Shown here piece after piece: positions 29,643 through 38,224 of a stretch of DNA of 64,000 nt. The stretch's first letter is position 1. The number at the start of each line of letters is the position of its first letter. The translations under genes and the position numbers were made by a program. The notes beneath the pieces were generated by a model. It searched no databases and was not told the origin of the DNA. It saw nothing but the letters and a program-made list of their open reading frames with translations. Source of the DNA: Capillimicrobium parvum (lineage in GTDB: Bacteria > Actinomycetota > Thermoleophilia > Solirubrobacterales > Solirubrobacteraceae); the NCBI RefSeq assembly GCF_021172045.1, contig NZ_CP087164.1:1860001-1924000 (forward strand), read 5' to 3'.

Positions 29643-30569
29643 TCAGGGGGTCGGAAAGCCCGGCGGCGGGCCGCCGGGCCCGCCGCCCGCCGCTGCCTCC
29701 CCGCCGGCGGGCTTGGTGGCGGTGTCGACCCCGACGGCGAGCGCAACGCGGTAGCCCTTCCTGACGTTGCCTCTCACCGTGGCGAGCTGGTCGGCGCCAC
29801 CGTCGTCGCCGAAGACGCTGTCGCTGTCGAGCGAGACCTGCGCCAGGTTCGACACCGACTGCTCGTAGCCCGCCTGTCGGTAGACGCGCCGGCAGACCCT
29901 CCGCGGCAGCGCGACCTGCGAGGTGGCGATGGCCTTGCCCGCATCGGTGATGCTCCTGCGGTCCGGGTAGACCTCGAAGTGGATGTGCGGCCAGCGTCCG
30001 CTGTAGCACGCCGGGAAGATGCTCCGAAACCGGACGCGCCCATCGGCGTCGGCGATCTGGACCCCGCGCAGGAAGTTCTCGTCCTCGACGCCCGGGGAGT
30101 ACATGGAGTAGCCACCCTCGCGGGTGCAGTGCCACACGTAGACCGCGACACCCTCGAATGGCGCGCCGCCGTTGGCGAGATCCGCCACGACCAGCTCGAG
30201 GGTCATCGGCACGCCCTCGGCGACCCCGTTCGCGGCCCCGAAGCTCGACCGGACGTCGCGGCGCACGATGCCGCTCTGTTCGAGCACGTCCGGCCCGTTC
30301 GATCCGTCGCCCGGGTACGGACCGGCCGTCTCGTCGGGGATCTCGCCGAGCGCCTTGGCCTTCGCGGCCGCGGTCCCGGTCGAGCCGCCCGAGCCGCCGC
30401 AGGCGACGAGCCCGGCGCTCACCGCGCCGAGGCCGAGGATCTGCAGCACCCGGCGGCGGCTGAGCAGCGTCTCCACGTCGAATCCGAGCCCCTGATCGAC
30501 CACCTCCTCCCGCGGGCGCGGCAGGCGGCGTCCCTCGTAGGTCTCGTGCATCGTCGGTTCGTCCATCAC
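29643..30569 (-). CDS. Membrane-anchored intradiol ring-cleavage dioxygenase family protein
   Basis: A 308-aa protein with a twin-arginine-like lipoprotein signal (SRRRVLQILGLG followed by LVACGG; Cys near residue 57), so it is probably folded in the cytosol, exported by Tat and lipid-anchored. The catalytic domain matches the intradiol dioxygenase family: VAVYVWHCTREGGYSMYS carries one Tyr/His region and PACYSGRWPHIHFEVY carries the Fe(III) ligands Tyr, His and His. Cytosolic family members cleave catechol or protocatechuate; exported ones are poorly characterised and may act on external aromatics. A Gly/Pro-rich tail ends the protein. Confidence 0.83.
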   Translation of the reverse strand: MMDEPTMHETYEGRRLPRPREEVVDQGLGFDVETLLSRRRVLQILGLGAVSAGLVACGGSGGSTGTAAAKAKALGEIPDETAGPYPGDGSNGPDVLEQSGIVRRDVRSSFGAANGVAEGVPMTLELVVADLANGGAPFEGVAVYVWHCTREGGYSMYSPGVEDENFLRGVQIADADGRVRFRSIFPACYSGRWPHIHFEVYPDRRSITDAGKAIATSQVALPRRVCRRVYRQAGYEQSVSNLAQVSLDSDSVFGDDGGADQLATVRGNVRKGYRVALAVGVDTATKPAGGEAAAGGGPGGPPPGFPTP

Positions 30570-30635: not shown

Positions 30636-31550
30636 CTACGGGACGAGGACGATCTTGCCGCGGGTGTGGCGCTTGGCGAGCTCGGTGTAGGCCTCGCGGA
30701 CCTGGTCGAGTGGGTACGTCGCGGCGATCGGCACCTCGAGCTCGCCGGCCGCGACCAGCGCCGCCACCTCGGCGAGCACGTCGGCCGATGCCGCGTCGTT
30801 GTTGCCCGCCGACTGGATGCCGCGCGTGCGCTCCGGCGGGATGATCGTGTTGACCCGCAGCGGGGCGACGCCCAACTCGTCGAGGGCGAGGCCGACGTAG
30901 CCGCCGAACGTGTCCACGAACGCGTCGACCCCGCCGGGGGCGGCGGCGCGGATGCCGTCGGCGACGCCGTCGCCGTGGGCGACCGGGATCACGTCGTGCG
31001 CGCGCAGCCAGTCATGGTTGGGTGCGCTGGCCAGGCCGATCACGCGGGCGCCGGTGCGCCGCGCGAGCTGGACCGTGAGCGAGCCGACCCCGCCGGCCGC
31101 GCCGGTCACCACGACCGTCTCGTCCGGTCCGGGCGCGACGGCACGGATGCACGCCCACGCGGTGGTGCCGGCGACGAACAGCGACCCCGCGACCTCCCAC
31201 GACACCTCCGGCGGCCGCGCGACCAGGTCGCCGGCCTCGGTCACGACCAGCTCGGCCTGGCTGGCGCGGCGGTCGGTCCAGCCGAGCACCTCGTCGCCGG
31301 GCGCCCACGTCGTCACGCCGTCGCCGGCGACGCCCACGACGCCGGCCAGGTCGCTGCCCTGCCCCGACGGGAACGTCGCCGGCCACAGGTCGTGCAGGAG
31401 GCCCTCGCGGATGCTGGCCTCACCGGGGTTGATCGCCGCGGCCTTGACGCGCACCACCACCTCGCCCGGACCCGGCGCCGGAGCCTCGACGTCGACGACC
31501 TGCAGGACGTCGACGCCACCGTATTCGTTGAACCGCACTGCTCTGGGCAT
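30636..31550 (-). CDS. NADPH:quinone reductase-like MDR oxidoreductase
   Basis: A 304-aa medium-chain dehydrogenase/reductase without the structural zinc cysteines, i.e. the zeta-crystallin/QOR branch. The N-terminal GroES-like domain has GPGEVVVRVKAAAINPGE, and the Rossmann core has VVTGAAGGVGSLTVQLA near residue 150. The C-terminal IPAERTRG-like segment and KIVLVP close the fold. It probably reduces quinones or enones with NADPH. I took ATG 31550 (MPRAVRF) as start, since an upstream MLM adds only two residues. It is monocistronic on the minus strand. Confidence 0.86.
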   Translation of the reverse strand: MPRAVRFNEYGGVDVLQVVDVEAPAPGPGEVVVRVKAAAINPGEASIREGLLHDLWPATFPSGQGSDLAGVVGVAGDGVTTWAPGDEVLGWTDRRASQAELVVTEAGDLVARPPEVSWEVAGSLFVAGTTAWACIRAVAPGPDETVVVTGAAGGVGSLTVQLARRTGARVIGLASAPNHDWLRAHDVIPVAHGDGVADGIRAAAPGGVDAFVDTFGGYVGLALDELGVAPLRVNTIIPPERTRGIQSAGNNDAASADVLAEVAALVAAGELEVPIAATYPLDQVREAYTELAKRHTRGKIVLVP

Positions 31551-31671
31551 GAGCACAGTTCAGCGCACCGCCCGCCCGCTCGCTCGCTCGCTCGGATACC
31601 CGTGTTCTCGTTCGCCGCGGCGCTCAAGCGTTCACGGGGGCGTGGCGCCAAGGCCGCCGGCGGGCGGCGGC

Positions 31672-32580
31672 TCAGCGTGCCCGGCCCGCCCGCACGACGT
31701 TCGTCGGATCCGGCTTGAGCTCCCGGTCGCCCTGGCTGTAGTCGCCGAACGGGCCGTCGCGCTGCGCCACCGCGGCGCCGACGCCCTCCGACTCGGCGAG
31801 CTCGATCCACGCCCGCGCCTCCGGCGTGTTGCGCATCATCGAGTCCATGACCGAGCCGAGCAGCTGGGTCGACGCGAGCCCCATGTTGTCGTAGGCCTGG
31901 TTGACGACGAGCTTCATCGAGGCGAGCTGGGAGAGCGGGATCGTGGCGAGCTCGCCGGCGAGCTGACGCGTGGCGGCCTCGAGCTCCTCGAACGGCACCG
32001 CCCGGTTGATCAACCCCAGCTCCGCCGCCTCGTCGCCCGACAGCGACCGGCCGGTCAGCGCGAGCTCCTTCGCCTTCGCCAGCCCGAGTCGGTAGACCCA
32101 CATGCCCGCGTGATGGCAGCCCCACATCCGCGAGTACGGCGTGCCGATCCGCGCGTCCTGCGAGGCGATGACGATGTCCGCGCACAGCGCCATCTCGCTG
32201 CCGCCGCCGACGCACCAGCCGTGCACCTGCGCGATCACCGGCTTCGGGCTGCGCCACAGCGACATGAACCGGGGCACCCAGCCGATCGACTGCGACGTGG
32301 CCATGATCAGGTCCCGGCCGGCGTCCCACTCGCCCTCGGTCGCGATGTCCTCGTTCCAGTGGGTGAAGCCGCCCGCGAAGTTGAAGCCGGCGCAGAACGA
32401 CCGCCCTGCGCCCTGCAGCAGGATCACCTTCACCGCGCGGTCGCGGATGGACTGCGTGACTGCATCCTCGAGCTCGTCGAGCATCGGCGGCACGATCGTG
32501 TTGAGGTCCTCGGGACGGTCCAGCGTGATGACCGCCGTGGCGTCCTGCACCGCGTAGTCGATCGTCTCGTAGGTGGTCAC
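31672..32580 (-). CDS. Crotonase-family enoyl-CoA hydratase/isomerase in a catabolic operon
   Basis: A 302-aa crotonase-fold protein, longer than usual through a C-terminal extension. Oxyanion-hole segments are FCAGFNFAGGF and HGWCVGGGSEMALCADI. The second active-site stretch TPYSRMWGCHHAGMW is unlike the Glu-containing loop of classical hydratases, so chemistry may be different (hydrolase, isomerase or ring cleavage). The GTG start at 32580 overlaps the stop of the upstream gene (GTGA). It is last in the order MarR, HpaB-like, AttH-like, crotonase and probably acts late in that pathway. Confidence 0.85.
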   Translation of the reverse strand: MTTYETIDYAVQDATAVITLDRPEDLNTIVPPMLDELEDAVTQSIRDRAVKVILLQGAGRSFCAGFNFAGGFTHWNEDIATEGEWDAGRDLIMATSQSIGWVPRFMSLWRSPKPVIAQVHGWCVGGGSEMALCADIVIASQDARIGTPYSRMWGCHHAGMWVYRLGLAKAKELALTGRSLSGDEAAELGLINRAVPFEELEAATRQLAGELATIPLSQLASMKLVVNQAYDNMGLASTQLLGSVMDSMMRNTPEARAWIELAESEGVGAAVAQRDGPFGDYSQGDRELKPDPTNVVRAGRAR

Positions 32581-33725
32581 TTGCGGTCCCTCCCTTGGAA
32601 GCCGTAGGGCGCGTAGCGGCCCATGACGTGATGCTCGAAATGCGCCATCCCGCGCACCCCGCCCGGGCCGCTGATGGTGAACGGGAACTCGGTGGGGCCG
32701 AGCCGGCGGTCCATCGGGACATGCGGCGGACCGGCCGGGCGCGCCGCGACCGCATAGCGGTCGGACTCGACGTGCGGCCCCGCGCCGCGCCAGACGCCGG
32801 CGCTGCCGCCGTCGTGCCAGCCGCCGTAGTAGCCGAAGCCCTGGACGTCGGCCGGGGTGCCCGGCTCCTCGAGCCGGTACTCGTGCCAGGCGCCGTGCTC
32901 GTCGAGGACCGCGAAGGCGCCGCCGGTGACGTACCGCGTCCCGGGCTCGTATTCGATCTCGTGGCGCACCTCGGTCAGCGCGACCACGCGGCCGTCCGGG
33001 TAGGTCAGCTGGCCCTCGAAGTCCAGCGGCCGGCCGTCCTCGCCCTCGTGGGTGTTGAAGAACCCGCCGTGGTCGTCGGTCTCGAACGGCACCCACAGCC
33101 GGTAGCGGCGCAGGTCGGCCTCGGACTCGATCGCGTCGACGCCGCCGTGCGGCGTGCGCGGCCCCATCGTCGAGCGCACGCCCCAGGAGTGGTCGCGCAT
33201 CGCGTGCCAGCCGTCGACCGCGACCTCGGCGCCGTCGCAGCGCAGCGTCCCGGACGCCCGGCACACCTGCGTGTAGCGGACCATGTCGTTGATGACGTGG
33301 CCGAACTTGAGATGGCGATAGGGCGCCTCGACGAAGGCGGCGCCGCGGGCCTGGAAGACGAGGTCGAAGGCGAGGTCGACCGGCGAGCCGGCAAGCGACA
33401 CGCGGATCTCCTGCATGGGCCGGACGAGCTCGATGCGCAGCGGTCCGGCCTCGAGCTCGGTGTAGCGGGGGCGCAGCGCGCGCGAGGCGCGAACGACGCG
33501 CTGCTCGCCGTCGCGGGCGAGGCCGGCGAAGCCGTCGACGACGTTCATGTTCGGGTGCAGCCGCATGCCGAAGATCACGTACCAGTCGCCCGGCGCGTAC
33601 GCCGCGAACCAGTAGCCGTCGTTGAAGTGCACGTCGGAGGTGCCCACGACGTTGAACGGCGTCGAGACCTGGTGGAACGGGAGGTCGTCGACGTCGTCGA
33701 GGCGCATCGCCGCAGCCTTCAACAT
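32577..33725 (-). CDS. Conserved protein, possibly AttH/CrtC lipocalin-like
   Basis: A 382-aa beta-rich protein. Conserved-looking stretches include HFNDGYWFAAYAPGDWYVIFGMRLHPN, described here by their Trp/Tyr content, and GWHAMRDHSWGVRS near residue 195, with paired His and Trp. The pattern resembles the double-lipocalin fold of AttH and hydroxyneurosporene synthase (CrtC) proteins. The family assignment is tentative. There is no signal peptide. It is translationally coupled to the downstream crotonase gene and follows the HpaB-like monooxygenase gene, so it may be a hydratase or binding protein for a hydrophobic substrate in the same pathway. Confidence 0.62.
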   Translation of the reverse strand: MLKAAAMRLDDVDDLPFHQVSTPFNVVGTSDVHFNDGYWFAAYAPGDWYVIFGMRLHPNMNVVDGFAGLARDGEQRVVRASRALRPRYTELEAGPLRIELVRPMQEIRVSLAGSPVDLAFDLVFQARGAAFVEAPYRHLKFGHVINDMVRYTQVCRASGTLRCDGAEVAVDGWHAMRDHSWGVRSTMGPRTPHGGVDAIESEADLRRYRLWVPFETDDHGGFFNTHEGEDGRPLDFEGQLTYPDGRVVALTEVRHEIEYEPGTRYVTGGAFAVLDEHGAWHEYRLEEPGTPADVQGFGYYGGWHDGGSAGVWRGAGPHVESDRYAVAARPAGPPHVPMDRRLGPTEFPFTISGPGGVRGMAHFEHHVMGRYAPYGFQGRDRK

Positions 33726-33760
33726 CGCGCCGCGCGTGTCGAGCGCGCGGCGCCGCGCGC

Positions 33761-35278
33761 TTATGCGTTCGCCCAGGGCGCCGCGGTGAACCCGTCGAGG
33801 TCGTAGTCGGACATGCAGTCCTCGACCATGCCGGTGAACTTCGCCATCAGCCCGTCGCGGCCCGCCCAGCTGAGCATGTCGAGGCGCACCTGCTCATGGT
33901 TGCCGCAGTAGTTCATCTCGTAGAGCTCGTGGCGGCCGCCGAACTCGCTGCCGATCGCGTCCCAGATCAGCTTGAACAGCTTGACGCGGTCGTGGGCGTC
34001 GCCGGTGGAGCCGCGGTAGAAGCGCTCGACGAGCGGGCCGATCTCCTCGCTGGTGAGGTCGCCCGGGCCGGAGGGGACGACGAGCGGCGAGCCGCCGAGG
34101 ATCTGCAGGAACGTCTGCTTGATCTTCGGCCAGGCCATCGTGCCGAAGATCCGCGCGATCGCCGCGTTCTCCTGTGACGGCATCACCGTGCCGCCCGGCC
34201 CTTCCTGCGTCTCGTTGATGAGCGCGGTGACGATCGCCCAGATCATCGTCCGCCACGCCACGACCTCGCCGAGCATCGTCTGCGGGCCGCGGAAGCCGTC
34301 CGTGCCGTTGGCCTCGAGGCCCTTGGCGAGCAGGCCGCACATGAAGTCGAGCTTGACCCCGAGCCGGGTCGTCGACTGCAGCGTGTAGCGGTTCACGAAG
34401 CCGGACGCCTGGAAGAAGCTCTGCGCGCGCTCGACGTCGCCGCAGACCAGGACGTTCTCCCACGGGATGAGCGCGTTGTCGAAGATGACGACCGCATCGT
34501 TCTCGTCGAAGCGGCTCGACAGCGGGTAGTTCCACGGCGACGTCGACGCCTTCTCGTAGGACGTGCGGCACAGGAGCTTCTTGCCGGGGGTGTCCATCGG
34601 CGCGATGAAGACCAGCGCGTAGTCCTCGGACCTGCCCTTCTCCATGACCGCCTGCGCGTTCTGGGCGACGAACGTCGCGTGCGTCAGCGCCGAGCCGGTC
34701 GCGAGCATCTTGGCGCCGCTGACGATGATGCCCTCGTCGGTCTCGCCGACCTTGTGCACGTAGACGTCGGCGACCTCGTGCACCGCCTTGCCGCGGTCGA
34801 TCGGGGGGTTGATCAGGACGTGGTTGAGGAAGAGGCCCTTCGTGGCGTAGTCGCGGTACCACTTCTCGCCGCTGGCCTCGAACGGGGCGTAGAAGGAGGG
34901 ATCGGCGCCGAGGGTCGCCATGAACGCCGCCTTGTAGTCGGGCGTGCGGCCCATCCAGCCGTACGACATGCGCGACCACAGCTCGACCGCCTTCGCGCCC
35001 CGTCGCAGGTCCTCGACCGAGTAGGCGGGCTTGAAGAACTCGTGGGTCACGATCCCGTTGCGGTCCTCGCCGACCAGCGTGTCGCGATGTTGCGGGTCGT
35101 GCAGCGCGTCGTACAGGCCCGCGATGGTGCGCGCCGACGTCGCGAAGGCGGGGTGCGTCGTGACGTCCTCGACGCGCTCGCCGTCCAGGTAGACCTGGCG
35201 CGCGTCGCGAAGGCTCGCGAGGTACTCGTCACCGGTGTACAGCTGCCCGCTGCGCACCTCGGTCGTGGTCGTCGCCAT
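33761..35278 (-). CDS. HpaB-family FADH2-dependent 4-hydroxyphenylacetate 3-monooxygenase-like oxygenase
   Basis: A 505-aa protein of the HpaB/4-hydroxybutyryl-CoA dehydratase superfamily. Family marks: GDEYLASLRDARQVYLDGERV at the start (described), GRTPDYKAAF, the FAD-binding HVLINPPIDRGK and KLLCRTSYEK region, and PWENVLVCGD. The Cys/His set that binds the 4Fe-4S cluster in the dehydratases is not apparent, so a flavin monooxygenase is favoured. It would need a flavin reductase (HpaC), which is not nearby. AGGAGGAG precedes ATG 35278. An 18-bp palindrome sits 24 nt upstream. The MarR gene just upstream on the same strand is its likely regulator. Confidence 0.85.
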   Translation of the reverse strand: MATTTTEVRSGQLYTGDEYLASLRDARQVYLDGERVEDVTTHPAFATSARTIAGLYDALHDPQHRDTLVGEDRNGIVTHEFFKPAYSVEDLRRGAKAVELWSRMSYGWMGRTPDYKAAFMATLGADPSFYAPFEASGEKWYRDYATKGLFLNHVLINPPIDRGKAVHEVADVYVHKVGETDEGIIVSGAKMLATGSALTHATFVAQNAQAVMEKGRSEDYALVFIAPMDTPGKKLLCRTSYEKASTSPWNYPLSSRFDENDAVVIFDNALIPWENVLVCGDVERAQSFFQASGFVNRYTLQSTTRLGVKLDFMCGLLAKGLEANGTDGFRGPQTMLGEVVAWRTMIWAIVTALINETQEGPGGTVMPSQENAAIARIFGTMAWPKIKQTFLQILGGSPLVVPSGPGDLTSEEIGPLVERFYRGSTGDAHDRVKLFKLIWDAIGSEFGGRHELYEMNYCGNHEQVRLDMLSWAGRDGLMAKFTGMVEDCMSDYDLDGFTAAPWANA

Positions 35279-35301
35279 CGCGTTCTCCTCCTGGCCGGAT
35301 T

Positions 35302-35319
35302 TCGTCCGTATACGTACGA
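35302..35319 (-). promoter_or_regulatory. Probable MarR operator upstream of the HpaB-like gene
   Basis: The 18-bp sequence TCGTCCGTATACGTACGA is a palindrome with eight of nine pairs matching. It lies 24 bp before the HpaB-like start codon and 57 bp beyond the MarR stop. Size and symmetry fit a MarR-dimer site. Binding is inferred, not shown. Confidence 0.55.
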
Positions 35320-35375
35320 TCTGGATGGAAGACGGTACGCCTCGGCCCATGGGCAGTCAAGCACGCCGCCGGACG

Positions 35376-35807
35376 TCAGAGGTCGATGAGCTTGGACAGC
35401 AGCGCGACGACGTCGCGCTGCTCGGCCGGCTCGAGGTGCGCGACAAGGCGACGGCCGACCTCGTCGACCTGCGGGGCGGTGCGCGCGAGCAGCTCGGATC
35501 CGGTGGCGGTGTTGCGCAGCAGGTTGCGGCGCGTGTCGACGGTGTCCCGGCGGCGCTCGACGAGGCCGCGCGCGACGAGCCGCCGGCACACCTCCGCCAG
35601 CGAGGAGGAGTCGAGCGAGATGCGCGCGCCGAGCGTGCGCTGGTCCAGATCCGGCTCGACCTCCAGCGCGGCGAGAACGGCGAACTGCACGCCGGTCACG
35701 CCGGTGTCGACCACGTCGGCCCAGATGGCGGTGTGCATCTGCTGGGCGCGCCGGATCAGGTGGCCCGGCGCGATGGCGAGGTCGAACTGGGTCGGCGCGC
35801 GCGGCAT
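35376..35807 (-). CDS. MarR-family regulator of the HpaB/crotonase cluster
   Basis: A 143-aa winged-helix regulator. The helix-turn-helix is QRTLGARISLDSSSLAEVCRRLVARGLV (in outline), followed by the wing RRDTVDTRRNLL with the basic-acidic pattern typical of MarR. It precedes the HpaB-like gene on the same strand, with a 97-bp gap containing a palindrome. It probably responds to an aromatic acid or its CoA ester, as MarR proteins of aromatic catabolism do. The ligand is inferred from context only. Confidence 0.86.
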   Translation of the reverse strand: MPRAPTQFDLAIAPGHLIRRAQQMHTAIWADVVDTGVTGVQFAVLAALEVEPDLDQRTLGARISLDSSSLAEVCRRLVARGLVERRRDTVDTRRNLLRNTATGSELLARTAPQVDEVGRRLVAHLEPAEQRDVVALLSKLIDL

Positions 35808-36097: not shown

Positions 36098-37516
36098 TTA
36101 CGCCTCGACGGGCTCGGCCACAACCGCCCCGGACCGCGCGCGAGCCGCACCGACGCCCGGCACGAACAGCGCGGCGGCCGCGCCGATCGCCAGGACCACC
36201 ACGGCGACCGGCAGCGCGGCGACCACGCCGTCGGTGAACGCCTGCGGCGTCGCGTAGGAGCCGTGCGCGCTGAACACGGAGGCGAGCACGGCGACGCCGA
36301 GGACGCCGCCGAGCTCACGGATCGCGTTCGTCGCGCCCGAGGCCTGGCCGGCCTGCTCGGGACGCACGGAGGCGAGGATCGCGTTCGCCGACGGGGCGAA
36401 GACGAGCGCCATGCCGAAGCCCGCCATGGCCAGCGGCACGATGAGCGACGTGTAGGCGGCGTCGGGGGACGACACGGCGGCCAGCCACCCGAGCGCGACG
36501 GCCTGCAGCGCCAGCCCCGCGGCCATGAGCGGCCGCGCGCCGATCCGGTCGCTGAGCAGGCCGGCGACAGGCGCGACGAACATCGGCATCGCGGTCCACG
36601 GCAGCGTCCGCAGACCGGACTCGAGCGGCGACAGGCCCTGGCCGGTCTGGAAGAACTGCGACAGCAGGAACACGGCGCCGAACGTCCCGAAGAACATGGC
36701 GAACGAGACGCCGTTCGTCGCGCTGAACCCGCGCTCGCGGAAGAAGCGCATCGGCAGCATCGGCGCGCGCGCACGCAGCTCCCAGGCGACGAACGCGGCG
36801 ACGAGTGCGACGCCCGCCCCGATGCTCGCCAGGATCGGGGCGCTGGTCCACCCGAGCGCCTGGCCGCGGACCACGCCGAACACGATGCCGAACAGGCCCG
36901 CGCCGACGAGCGCGAGGCCGCGCAGGTCCAGCGCGCGGGCGGGGCCGAAGGACTCCGTCAGGCGGCCGGCGGCCAGCGGGATCAGCGCGAGGCCGATCGG
37001 GACGTTCAGCCAGAAGATCCAGTGCCAGGAGACGCCCTCGACCACCGCGCCGCCGACGAGCGGCCCGAGCGCGACGCCGAGGCCGCTGATGCCGGCCCAG
37101 ACGCCGAGGGCCGCGCCGCGGCGGGCGGGCGGGACCGCCTCCGAGAGGAGCGTGAGCGTCAGCGGCAGCACGATCGCCGCGCCGACGCCCTGGATCGCCC
37201 GCGCGGCGACGAGCGCGTCGATGCTCGGCGCGAGCGCGGCCGCTGCGCTCGCGGCGGTGAACAGCCCGAGGCCGATCACGAACATCCGCTTGCGCCCGAA
37301 GCGGTCGCCGAGCGCGGCGCCCGTCAGGAGGAGGACGGCGAACGACAGGGTGTACGCGTTGACGGTCCACTCGAGCGCCTCGAGCGAACCGCCGAGGTCC
37401 GCCCGGATGGACGGCAGCGCGACCCCGACGACGAGGTTGTCGAGCGACGTCATGAACAGCGCGATCGACACGATCGCGAGGGTCCACAGCGCGTGGCGGC
37501 GGGGCGTGGGGGACAT
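36098..37516 (-). CDS. DHA2-family MFS multidrug exporter under TetR control
   Basis: A 472-aa, 14-helix proton/drug antiporter. Marks: TM1 SLDNLVVGVALPSI (D1), motif A ALGDRFGRKRMFV near residue 67, and motif C GLGVALGPLVGG near residue 145. It is related to but clearly distinct from the exporter at 3.5-5.1 kb. ATG 37516 has a GAGGAGG site 9 nt upstream; a longer in-frame start (37555) would run through the operator. The palindrome at 37540-37555 matches one at the tetR start, so the upstream TetR protein almost certainly controls it. Confidence 0.9.
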   Translation of the reverse strand: MSPTPRRHALWTLAIVSIALFMTSLDNLVVGVALPSIRADLGGSLEALEWTVNAYTLSFAVLLLTGAALGDRFGRKRMFVIGLGLFTAASAAAALAPSIDALVAARAIQGVGAAIVLPLTLTLLSEAVPPARRGAALGVWAGISGLGVALGPLVGGAVVEGVSWHWIFWLNVPIGLALIPLAAGRLTESFGPARALDLRGLALVGAGLFGIVFGVVRGQALGWTSAPILASIGAGVALVAAFVAWELRARAPMLPMRFFRERGFSATNGVSFAMFFGTFGAVFLLSQFFQTGQGLSPLESGLRTLPWTAMPMFVAPVAGLLSDRIGARPLMAAGLALQAVALGWLAAVSSPDAAYTSLIVPLAMAGFGMALVFAPSANAILASVRPEQAGQASGATNAIRELGGVLGVAVLASVFSAHGSYATPQAFTDGVVAALPVAVVVLAIGAAAALFVPGVGAARARSGAVVAEPVEA

Positions 37517-37539
37517 GGGGGCCGGCCTCCTCGTTGTGT

Positions 37540-37555
37540 GTGACTGGTTACTCAC
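37540..37555 (-). promoter_or_regulatory. TetR operator 1 (exporter promoter)
   Basis: GTGACT-GGTT-ACTCAC, a 16-bp inverted repeat 24 nt before the exporter start. It shares the GTGA(G/C)T-n4-ACTCAC design with the site at the tetR start, with identical spacing. Confidence 0.72.
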
Positions 37556-37595
37556 TGTCTCGGCAAAAAAAAGAGAGGGGTCGCGCTCGGCTCCG

Positions 37596-38150
37596 TCAGT
37601 CCCAGCACGTGAGGGCGCGGGCCCACGGCTCGTCGAGCTCGTCGGCGCGCATGGCGGCGACGACGTTCATCAGCATCCCGTGCGCGAACCAGGTCTGCAG
37701 CTCGGCGTCGGTGGCCTCCGAGCGGCGGGCGACGAGCTCGTACAGGCGGCGGAAGCCGCGCCGGACCGCCTCGCGGACCTCGGGGTCGTCGGCGGCGGCG
37801 TGGGTCTGCAGCTGCAGCAGCAGCGCGTCGCGGTTGCGCAGGAGCTCGCCATAGGCGGCGCCCATCGCGGCGAGCGGGCTCGTGCCGTCGTCCGCCGCGG
37901 CGGCGCGATCGGCGGCCTCGGCGAAGGTCGCGACCGTGCGCTCGTAGCAGCGGTCGACGAGCGCGACGAAGAGCTCGCGCTTCGTCGGGAACAGGCGGAA
38001 GAGGTAGGCCTGGGAGATGCCGGCGGCCTTGGCGATCTCGGTCGTCGGCGTGCCGTGGTAGCCGCGCGCGGCGAAGGCCTTCTCGGCGGCCTGGAGCACG
38101 GCCTCGCGGCGCTCCTCGGCGGTGGAGAGGGTGCGGGTGGCGGTGGACAC
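37596..38150 (-). CDS. TetR-family repressor of the adjacent exporter
   Basis: A 184-aa TetR regulator. The N-terminal helix-turn-helix is intact: REAVLQAAEKAFAARGYHGTPTTEIAKAAGISQAYLFRLFPTKREL in outline, with the YLFRLFPTK signature. The rest is a helical ligand domain ending in LTCWD. I chose GTG 38150 because a CATACT box lies 7 nt upstream within the operator; the longer GTG 38174 would translate through it. It lies upstream of the exporter on the same strand, 79 nt away. It probably represses both genes and is released by an exporter substrate. Confidence 0.87.
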   Translation of the reverse strand: MSTATRTLSTAEERREAVLQAAEKAFAARGYHGTPTTEIAKAAGISQAYLFRLFPTKRELFVALVDRCYERTVATFAEAADRAAAADDGTSPLAAMGAAYGELLRNRDALLLQLQTHAAADDPEVREAVRRGFRRLYELVARRSEATDAELQTWFAHGMLMNVVAAMRADELDEPWARALTCWD

Positions 38151-38154
38151 GGGT

Positions 38155-38170
38155 GTGAGTATGCACTCAC
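38155..38170 (-). promoter_or_regulatory. TetR operator 2 (tetR promoter)
   Basis: GTGAGT-ATGC-ACTCAC, a 16-bp inverted repeat with perfect 6-bp arms. It overlaps the CATACT -10 box of tetR, so binding would give autorepression. It matches operator 1 in 11 of 12 arm positions. Confidence 0.74.
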
Positions 38171-38224
38171 TCACTCTCGGCTGTCAAGGTTGGACCGCTT
38201 ATCCGCGGGGTACGCTGCCCGCCA

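Follow-up and report, generated by a model that had tools for sequence, protein, structure and literature searches.

A window of 64,000 nucleotides from Capillimicrobium parvum (NCBI RefSeq assembly GCF_021172045.1, contig NZ_CP087164.1, positions 1,860,001 to 1,924,000 of the forward strand) carries four genes on the minus strand, at 31672-35807, that encode a MarR-family regulator, an HpaB-like oxygenase, an AttH/CrtC-like protein and a crotonase. Here we report that the AttH-like protein, which an earlier note on this DNA had left unexplained, can be assigned by its sequence to the Rv3169 family, a family with a solved member, 25-phosphosteroid lyase (25-PSL). The note took the four genes for a regulated catabolic operon with a possibly hydrophobic substrate; the locus does look like such an operon, and the kinship of the AttH-like protein to a steroid lyase makes a hydrophobic substrate plausible. 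Our tentative reading is that the genes form an operon, controlled by MarR, for the breakdown of a phenolic compound whose side chain is hydrophobic and hydroxylated.

The AttH-like protein exceeds the cut-off of the NCBI model for the Rv3169 family (Table 1), and is the only protein in the genome to do so. When compared with the PDB by phmmer, at E-values up to 5, it matches only entries of 25-PSL, the best being 9fzn (1.3e-31), and a profile made from 12 family members, with 25-PSL left out, aligns with the whole length of 25-PSL at an E-value of 5.5e-83. Residues 177-184 read RDHSWGVR, where 9fzn reads RDRSWGVR. In PDB 9g4c the Asp of this motif is replaced by Asn (R-N-R), and we infer that 9g4c is a designed active-site mutant. 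The equivalent residue of the window protein is D178, which 17 of 18 aligned rows share; S180 and G182 occur in all 18. The exception to D178 is a family member at locus L085 (7016-8113), in which Asn replaces the conserved Asp as it does in 9g4c; that protein may be inactive or functionally changed. 25-PSL is the partner of 25-hydroxysteroid kinase (25-HSK) in anaerobic cholesterol side-chain degradation. In Sterolibacterium denitrificans, 25-HSK is reported to phosphorylate a tertiary alcohol, and the phosphate is then eliminated by a C-O lyase that was still unidentified in 2021 (PMC8449060; PMC11061730). AttH/Rv3169-type proteins of actinobacterial catabolic clusters carry the annotation 'hypothetical'.

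Genes for phosphotransferases recur beside genes of the Rv3169 family. Seven of eight annotated plasmid loci of family members include, within the stretch examined, a gene labelled as a phosphotransferase, an 'ecdysteroid 22-kinase' or a phosphoenolpyruvate (PEP)-utilising enzyme, the exception being Variovorax (L089); two further family loci have no annotation. The sequence within 4.5 kb on either side of each family gene was then compared with 12 kinase proteins, taken from the annotated plasmid loci, L019 and L021, and phosphotransferase genes were found at 14 of 17 other family loci (10 of APH type and 6 of PEP type, two loci having both), each of the 14 being matched by one or more queries that originated at a different locus. 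L031, L089 and L013 were negative. Among control loci, unmatched by taxon and searched with queries drawn from the test set and from L021, one of 25 was positive (14 centred on crotonase genes and 11 on HpaB genes), and that one was L021 itself. The loci L013-L016 and L031 are short, the match at L014 is a weak one of 54 bits that spans about 100 residues, and L084 and L086 are close copies. A nearby kinase is an association and not a defining catalytic feature of the family; on our reading, the Rv3169 family supplies the lyase of two-part dehydration modules, the other part being a kinase. The closely similar clusters L086 and L084, on plasmids of Rhodococcus oxybenzonivorans S2-17 and R. pyridinivorans P23, bring together several genes for PEP-utilising enzymes, CoA (coenzyme A) ligases and an AttH-like gene. 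As orthologues of the window operon these Rhodococcus clusters were rejected; the HpaB protein of L084 is 24% identical to that of the window.

The kinase adjoining the family gene of Tsukamurella matches PDB 3ats/3att (1.9e-74) and 9fsg (2e-55). 3ATT is the APH-like protein Rv3168 (PMC3691515), and Rv3168-Rv3169 of Mycobacterium tuberculosis are reported to form an operon repressed by Rv3167c (PMC5340868), so an APH-like gene adjoins the namesake of the family too. A wider proposal, which we hold with a little less assurance than our reading of the window operon, is that the Rv3169 family comprises a wide range of phosphate-eliminating lyases that work with two unrelated types of kinase, APH-like and PEP-utilising dikinase-like, and dehydrate hydrophobic alcohols at the expense of ATP in aerobic Actinomycetota, among them M. 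tuberculosis with its Rv3168-Rv3169 pair. In that case the window operon would be a variant in which such dehydration is tied to the hydroxylation of phenols and the kinase is encoded in trans, and Rv3168 would phosphorylate alcohols rather than confer resistance to aminoglycosides. A kinase/lyase role for Rv3168-Rv3169 was not found in the portions of published accounts within our limited coverage of the literature. The pairing with kinases across the family is, if new, the more interesting part, and the authors of the 25-PSL structures may have noted it already.

The four open reading frames of the operon were confirmed, co-directional and in the place previously described (Table 1). Overlaps in the plural had been claimed; the only one is of 4 bp, between the AttH-like and crotonase genes, the HpaB-AttH and MarR-HpaB gaps being 35 bp and 97 bp. 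An alternative start for the AttH-like protein at 33707, the second Met, at which the two nearest relatives start, would widen the HpaB-AttH gap to 53 bp. GC content at third codon positions is 0.96-0.98 across all four genes, in a genome that is a single 5.95-Mb contig and a window whose GC content is 66-78% per 2-kb step.

Table 1. Features of the operon, in order of transcription (positions in the window).
Feature	Position	Strand	Details
MarR-family regulator gene	35376..35807	-	143 aa; PF12802 47.2 bits and PF01047 41.8 bits, both above cut-off
MarR-HpaB intergenic region	35279..35375	-	candidate operator palindromes (palindrome scan), putative function
HpaB-like two-component flavin-dependent phenol hydroxylase, oxygenase component	33761..35278	-	505 aa; PF11794 and PF03241
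AttH/CrtC-like protein, Rv3169 / 25-phosphosteroid lyase family	32577..33725	-	382 aa; NF053593 267.3 bits, cut-off 150
PRK12478-family crotonase	31672..32580	-	302 aa, GTG start; NF009125 464.1 bits, cut-off 347; PF00378

The oxygenase belongs to the HpaB superfamily by its Pfam matches (HpaB_N 287.3 bits, HpaB 189.7 bits), and its nearest solved relatives are HpaB structures (PDB 6qyh, 3.3e-154). It keeps the GRTPDY stretch and the NH of the NPP stretch, both of which we take to be catalytic. Its score with the HpaB-2 equivalog TIGR02310 is 571.5 bits, below the cut-off of 885.2. The genome has nine HpaB-type places, the window gene included, and the nearest paralogue, 62% identical, lies at 777 kb (L021). 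Around this paralogue are a CoA ligase gene, a reading frame that joins a flavin reductase to GntR and FCD domains, and genes for a short-chain dehydrogenase/reductase, a PEP-utiliser, a PYC/OADA-type protein, a PPDK_N protein, a biotinyl protein and a biotin carboxylase. The PEP-utiliser/PPDK_N pair and the biotin-dependent carboxylase set adjoin an HpaB gene (3525-17384 of L021, at about 772-786 kb of the genome), and the locus perhaps encodes a kinase-plus-carboxylase pathway for a phenol or a ketone. HpaB relatives with 63% identity occur in two other genomes in different contexts, one of which (L050) has flavin reductase-GntR and IclR genes in common with L021. The absence of a flavin reductase from the window, on which the earlier note relied, is real; it cannot serve as evidence, because the genome has seven such places (PF01613), none of them inside 1860001-1924000, and two-component hydroxylases use reduced flavin, which is diffusible.

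The crotonase passes the cut-off of the PRK12478 equivalog NF009125 (Table 1), and its nearest solved relative is PDB 3njb (1.1e-52). Its second active-site loop had been regarded as odd and as a sign of novelty. In an alignment of 15 crotonases, the window sequence included, this loop (SRMWGCHHAGMW, residues 150-161) proved to be mostly typical of the family, with R151, W153, G154 and W161 invariant in every row; CHHA, found in the window sequence only, is alone unusual. An acid, Glu or Asp, stands at the first catalytic position (GGGS[ED] or similar) in 15 of 15 rows, and presumably corresponds to Glu144 of the rat hydratase. In the following loop, the position that we assume to be that of the second Glu, Glu164, holds Tyr in 13 rows and Gly or Pro in two.

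The best NCBIfam matches of the MarR protein, BagL/FevM, Saro_0803 and HpaR, all fall below their cut-offs, the HpaR equivalog scoring 45.8 bits against 121.2. With the HpaB-2 score, this bears out the view that the operon is not one for 4-hydroxyphenylacetate. The protein is probably a ligand-responsive repressor. Two palindromes detected by a scan of the MarR-HpaB intergenic region, GCCCATGGGC at 35345-35354 and the overlapping CGTACG/CGTATACG at 35307-35318, are candidate operators, and AGGAGGAGA stands immediately upstream of the HpaB-like start; a promoter scan of 35279-35375 returned no sigma-70 match. Upstream of the MarR gene, and co-directional with it, lie genes for a DHA2-type efflux transporter (above the efflux_EmrB cut-off) and a TetR protein (36098-38174, minus strand).

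Joined into a pathway, the four genes would act as follows. A phenolic ligand would release MarR from the MarR-HpaB intergenic region, and the HpaB-like enzyme, to judge from its family, would hydroxylate the substrate ortho to the phenol OH with reduced flavin from a reductase encoded elsewhere. A kinase encoded outside the operon would phosphorylate a secondary or tertiary alcohol of the side chain, from which the AttH-like protein would eliminate phosphate to give an alkene, as 25-PSL does. The side chain, in the form of a CoA thioester, would then be the substrate of the crotonase; the enzymes for CoA ligation and for ring cleavage are presumably encoded at other loci. Potential partners in trans are encoded in the genome, namely the seven flavin reductases, ten APH matches, and the PEP-utiliser/PPDK_N pair beside the 62% identical HpaB paralogue.

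Conservation was examined in 396 Actinomycetota genomes, the present one included, at strict thresholds and with only the best few candidates per genome scored. Homologues of the AttH-like protein (E 1e-40) and of HpaB (1e-185) were each found in three genomes, and those of the crotonase (1e-75) in 13, in varied contexts; the neighbourhoods of crotonase and HpaB homologues had no pathway in common. Only one other genome, G522, appears in two of the homologue lists, with the genes on separate contigs. The closest AttH relative found (L031, 59% identical) is on a contig with TctC-type and DMFA2_C-type genes and, on our reading, a class III CoA-transferase-like gene; the next, in G522 (47%), is near an APH gene and, as we read it, CoA ligases and a cytochrome P450. 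Close AttH homologues were confirmed at one locus, L031, of 17 pattern matches in genome contigs, and at none in viral contigs. In the order of G522 they occur in one of 30 genomes, G522 itself, and in that of G365 in none of 358 at E 1e-50, a search without a positive control that shows little. Within the class, AttH homologues at E 1e-10 occur in five of 199 genomes, our own included. The gene table for a Rhodococcus ruber plasmid with a crotonase match, though incomplete, shows no HpaB gene adjoining it. Clusters of homologues whose substrate is known, which would have told against the earlier note's reading, did not turn up in the genomes compared.

Several observations weigh against the pathway proposed above. 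In none of the other genomes among the 396 do close homologues of any two of the three enzymes adjoin each other, so conservation cannot confirm the single pathway that the earlier note had deduced from gene order and overlaps, and it is the spacing of the four genes that suggests one. The 12 kinase queries found no APH- or PEP-type kinase in the 64-kb window, unlike 14 of the 17 other family loci, and there is no CoA ligase among the genes examined adjoining the operon. Most of the family members retrieved share only about 23-32% identity with the AttH-like protein, which at such distances could have changed its reaction; an AlphaFold model of it, made from a two-row alignment, had a mean pLDDT of 38 and was not used.

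The lack of a kinase in the window would be expected if the operon were the same and its AttH-like protein independent of phosphate, that is, a CrtC-like hydratase/dehydratase or isomerase whose substrate has an isolated double bond or an unphosphorylated alcohol. The window sequence has His where 25-PSL has Arg, and its D-H-S-W contains a His-x-Trp like the essential His239 and Trp241 of CrtC (PMC4717167), which is a likeness in spacing. This explanation is unlikely: the Pfam matches of the protein at E 0.001 do not include CrtC (PF07143), the only domain listed being DUF7065 with 20 bits, below its cut-off of 27, and the 12-member family profile that finds 25-PSL reaches the CrtC-domain structure 7a0q only at E 0.93.

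Less probable again is an ordinary phenolic-acid or phenylpropanoid operon, in which HpaB would hydroxylate a small phenolic acid, the CoA ester of that acid would be the substrate of the crotonase, and the AttH-like protein would be an accessory. Members of the HpaB and crotonase families often take part in the breakdown of phenolic acids, and the MarR protein weakly matches HpaR and Saro_0803, which we take to be regulators of phenolic type. This explanation leaves the AttH-like gene without a role, the HpaB-2 and HpaR cut-offs are unreached, and the crotonase scores 108.7 with the p-hydroxycinnamoyl-CoA hydratase/lyase model, against a cut-off of 276. Least likely are chance neighbours that have a strand in common and no pathway. 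In favour of this are the lack of co-occurrence in the 396 genomes, the varied contexts of crotonase homologues and the unrelated contexts of the nearest AttH relatives; against it are the 4-bp overlap, the short HpaB-AttH gap and the uniformly high GC content at third codon positions.

On the same strand downstream, a zinc-type dehydrogenase or quinone reductase-like (Qor) gene (30636-31556) begins 115 bp beyond the crotonase, and two genes and 1.1 kb downstream of the operon lies a gene for a putative intradiol dioxygenase (29643-30569; PF00775 38.5 bits, cut-off 27), contrary to the previous statement that no ring-cleavage gene is present. We read the dioxygenase-like protein as having a predicted Tat (twin-arginine translocation) or lipoprotein signal. 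Five homologues of it occur in four relatives (5 of 61 genomes, our own included), and their short flanks contain no match to the other seven genes of the stretch. Membership of the Qor and intradiol genes in the operon is unproven.

Every protein of the operon belongs to a known family, and the combination is unseen elsewhere in our sample. The family of the AttH-like protein hints that phosphate-elimination chemistry reaches beyond steroids, and the lyase reading gives the uncharacterised AttH/Rv3169 family a concrete, testable chemistry and offers a function for Rv3168-Rv3169. Compared with 25-PSL (PDB 9fzn, 9g2i, 9g4c), the window protein is of the same family over its full length by profile and shares the RD-x-SWGVR motif with its Asp; it differs in being about one third identical or less, in the His that replaces Arg in the motif, and in a gene that stands beside HpaB and crotonase without a kinase in the window. 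The Rv3168-Rv3169 operon is alike in that the NCBI family for which the window protein scores above cut-off takes its name from Rv3169, and unlike in having an APH-like gene inside and a TetR-type regulator, where the window has MarR, HpaB and crotonase. With E. coli-type HpaB, 4-hydroxyphenylacetate 3-monooxygenase (PDB 6qyh, 6b1b), the oxygenase has both HpaB domains, GRTPDY and NH...NPP in common, whereas it falls below the equivalog cut-off, its 205-220 loop differs in the alignment, and no HpaC or homoprotocatechuate pathway genes were seen adjoining it. The crotonase resembles other PRK12478 proteins (NF009125; solved relative 3njb) in scoring above the equivalog cut-off and in the RMWG loop, and departs from them in having CHHA where they have AYL[ST] or similar and in the coupling of its gene to an AttH-like gene.

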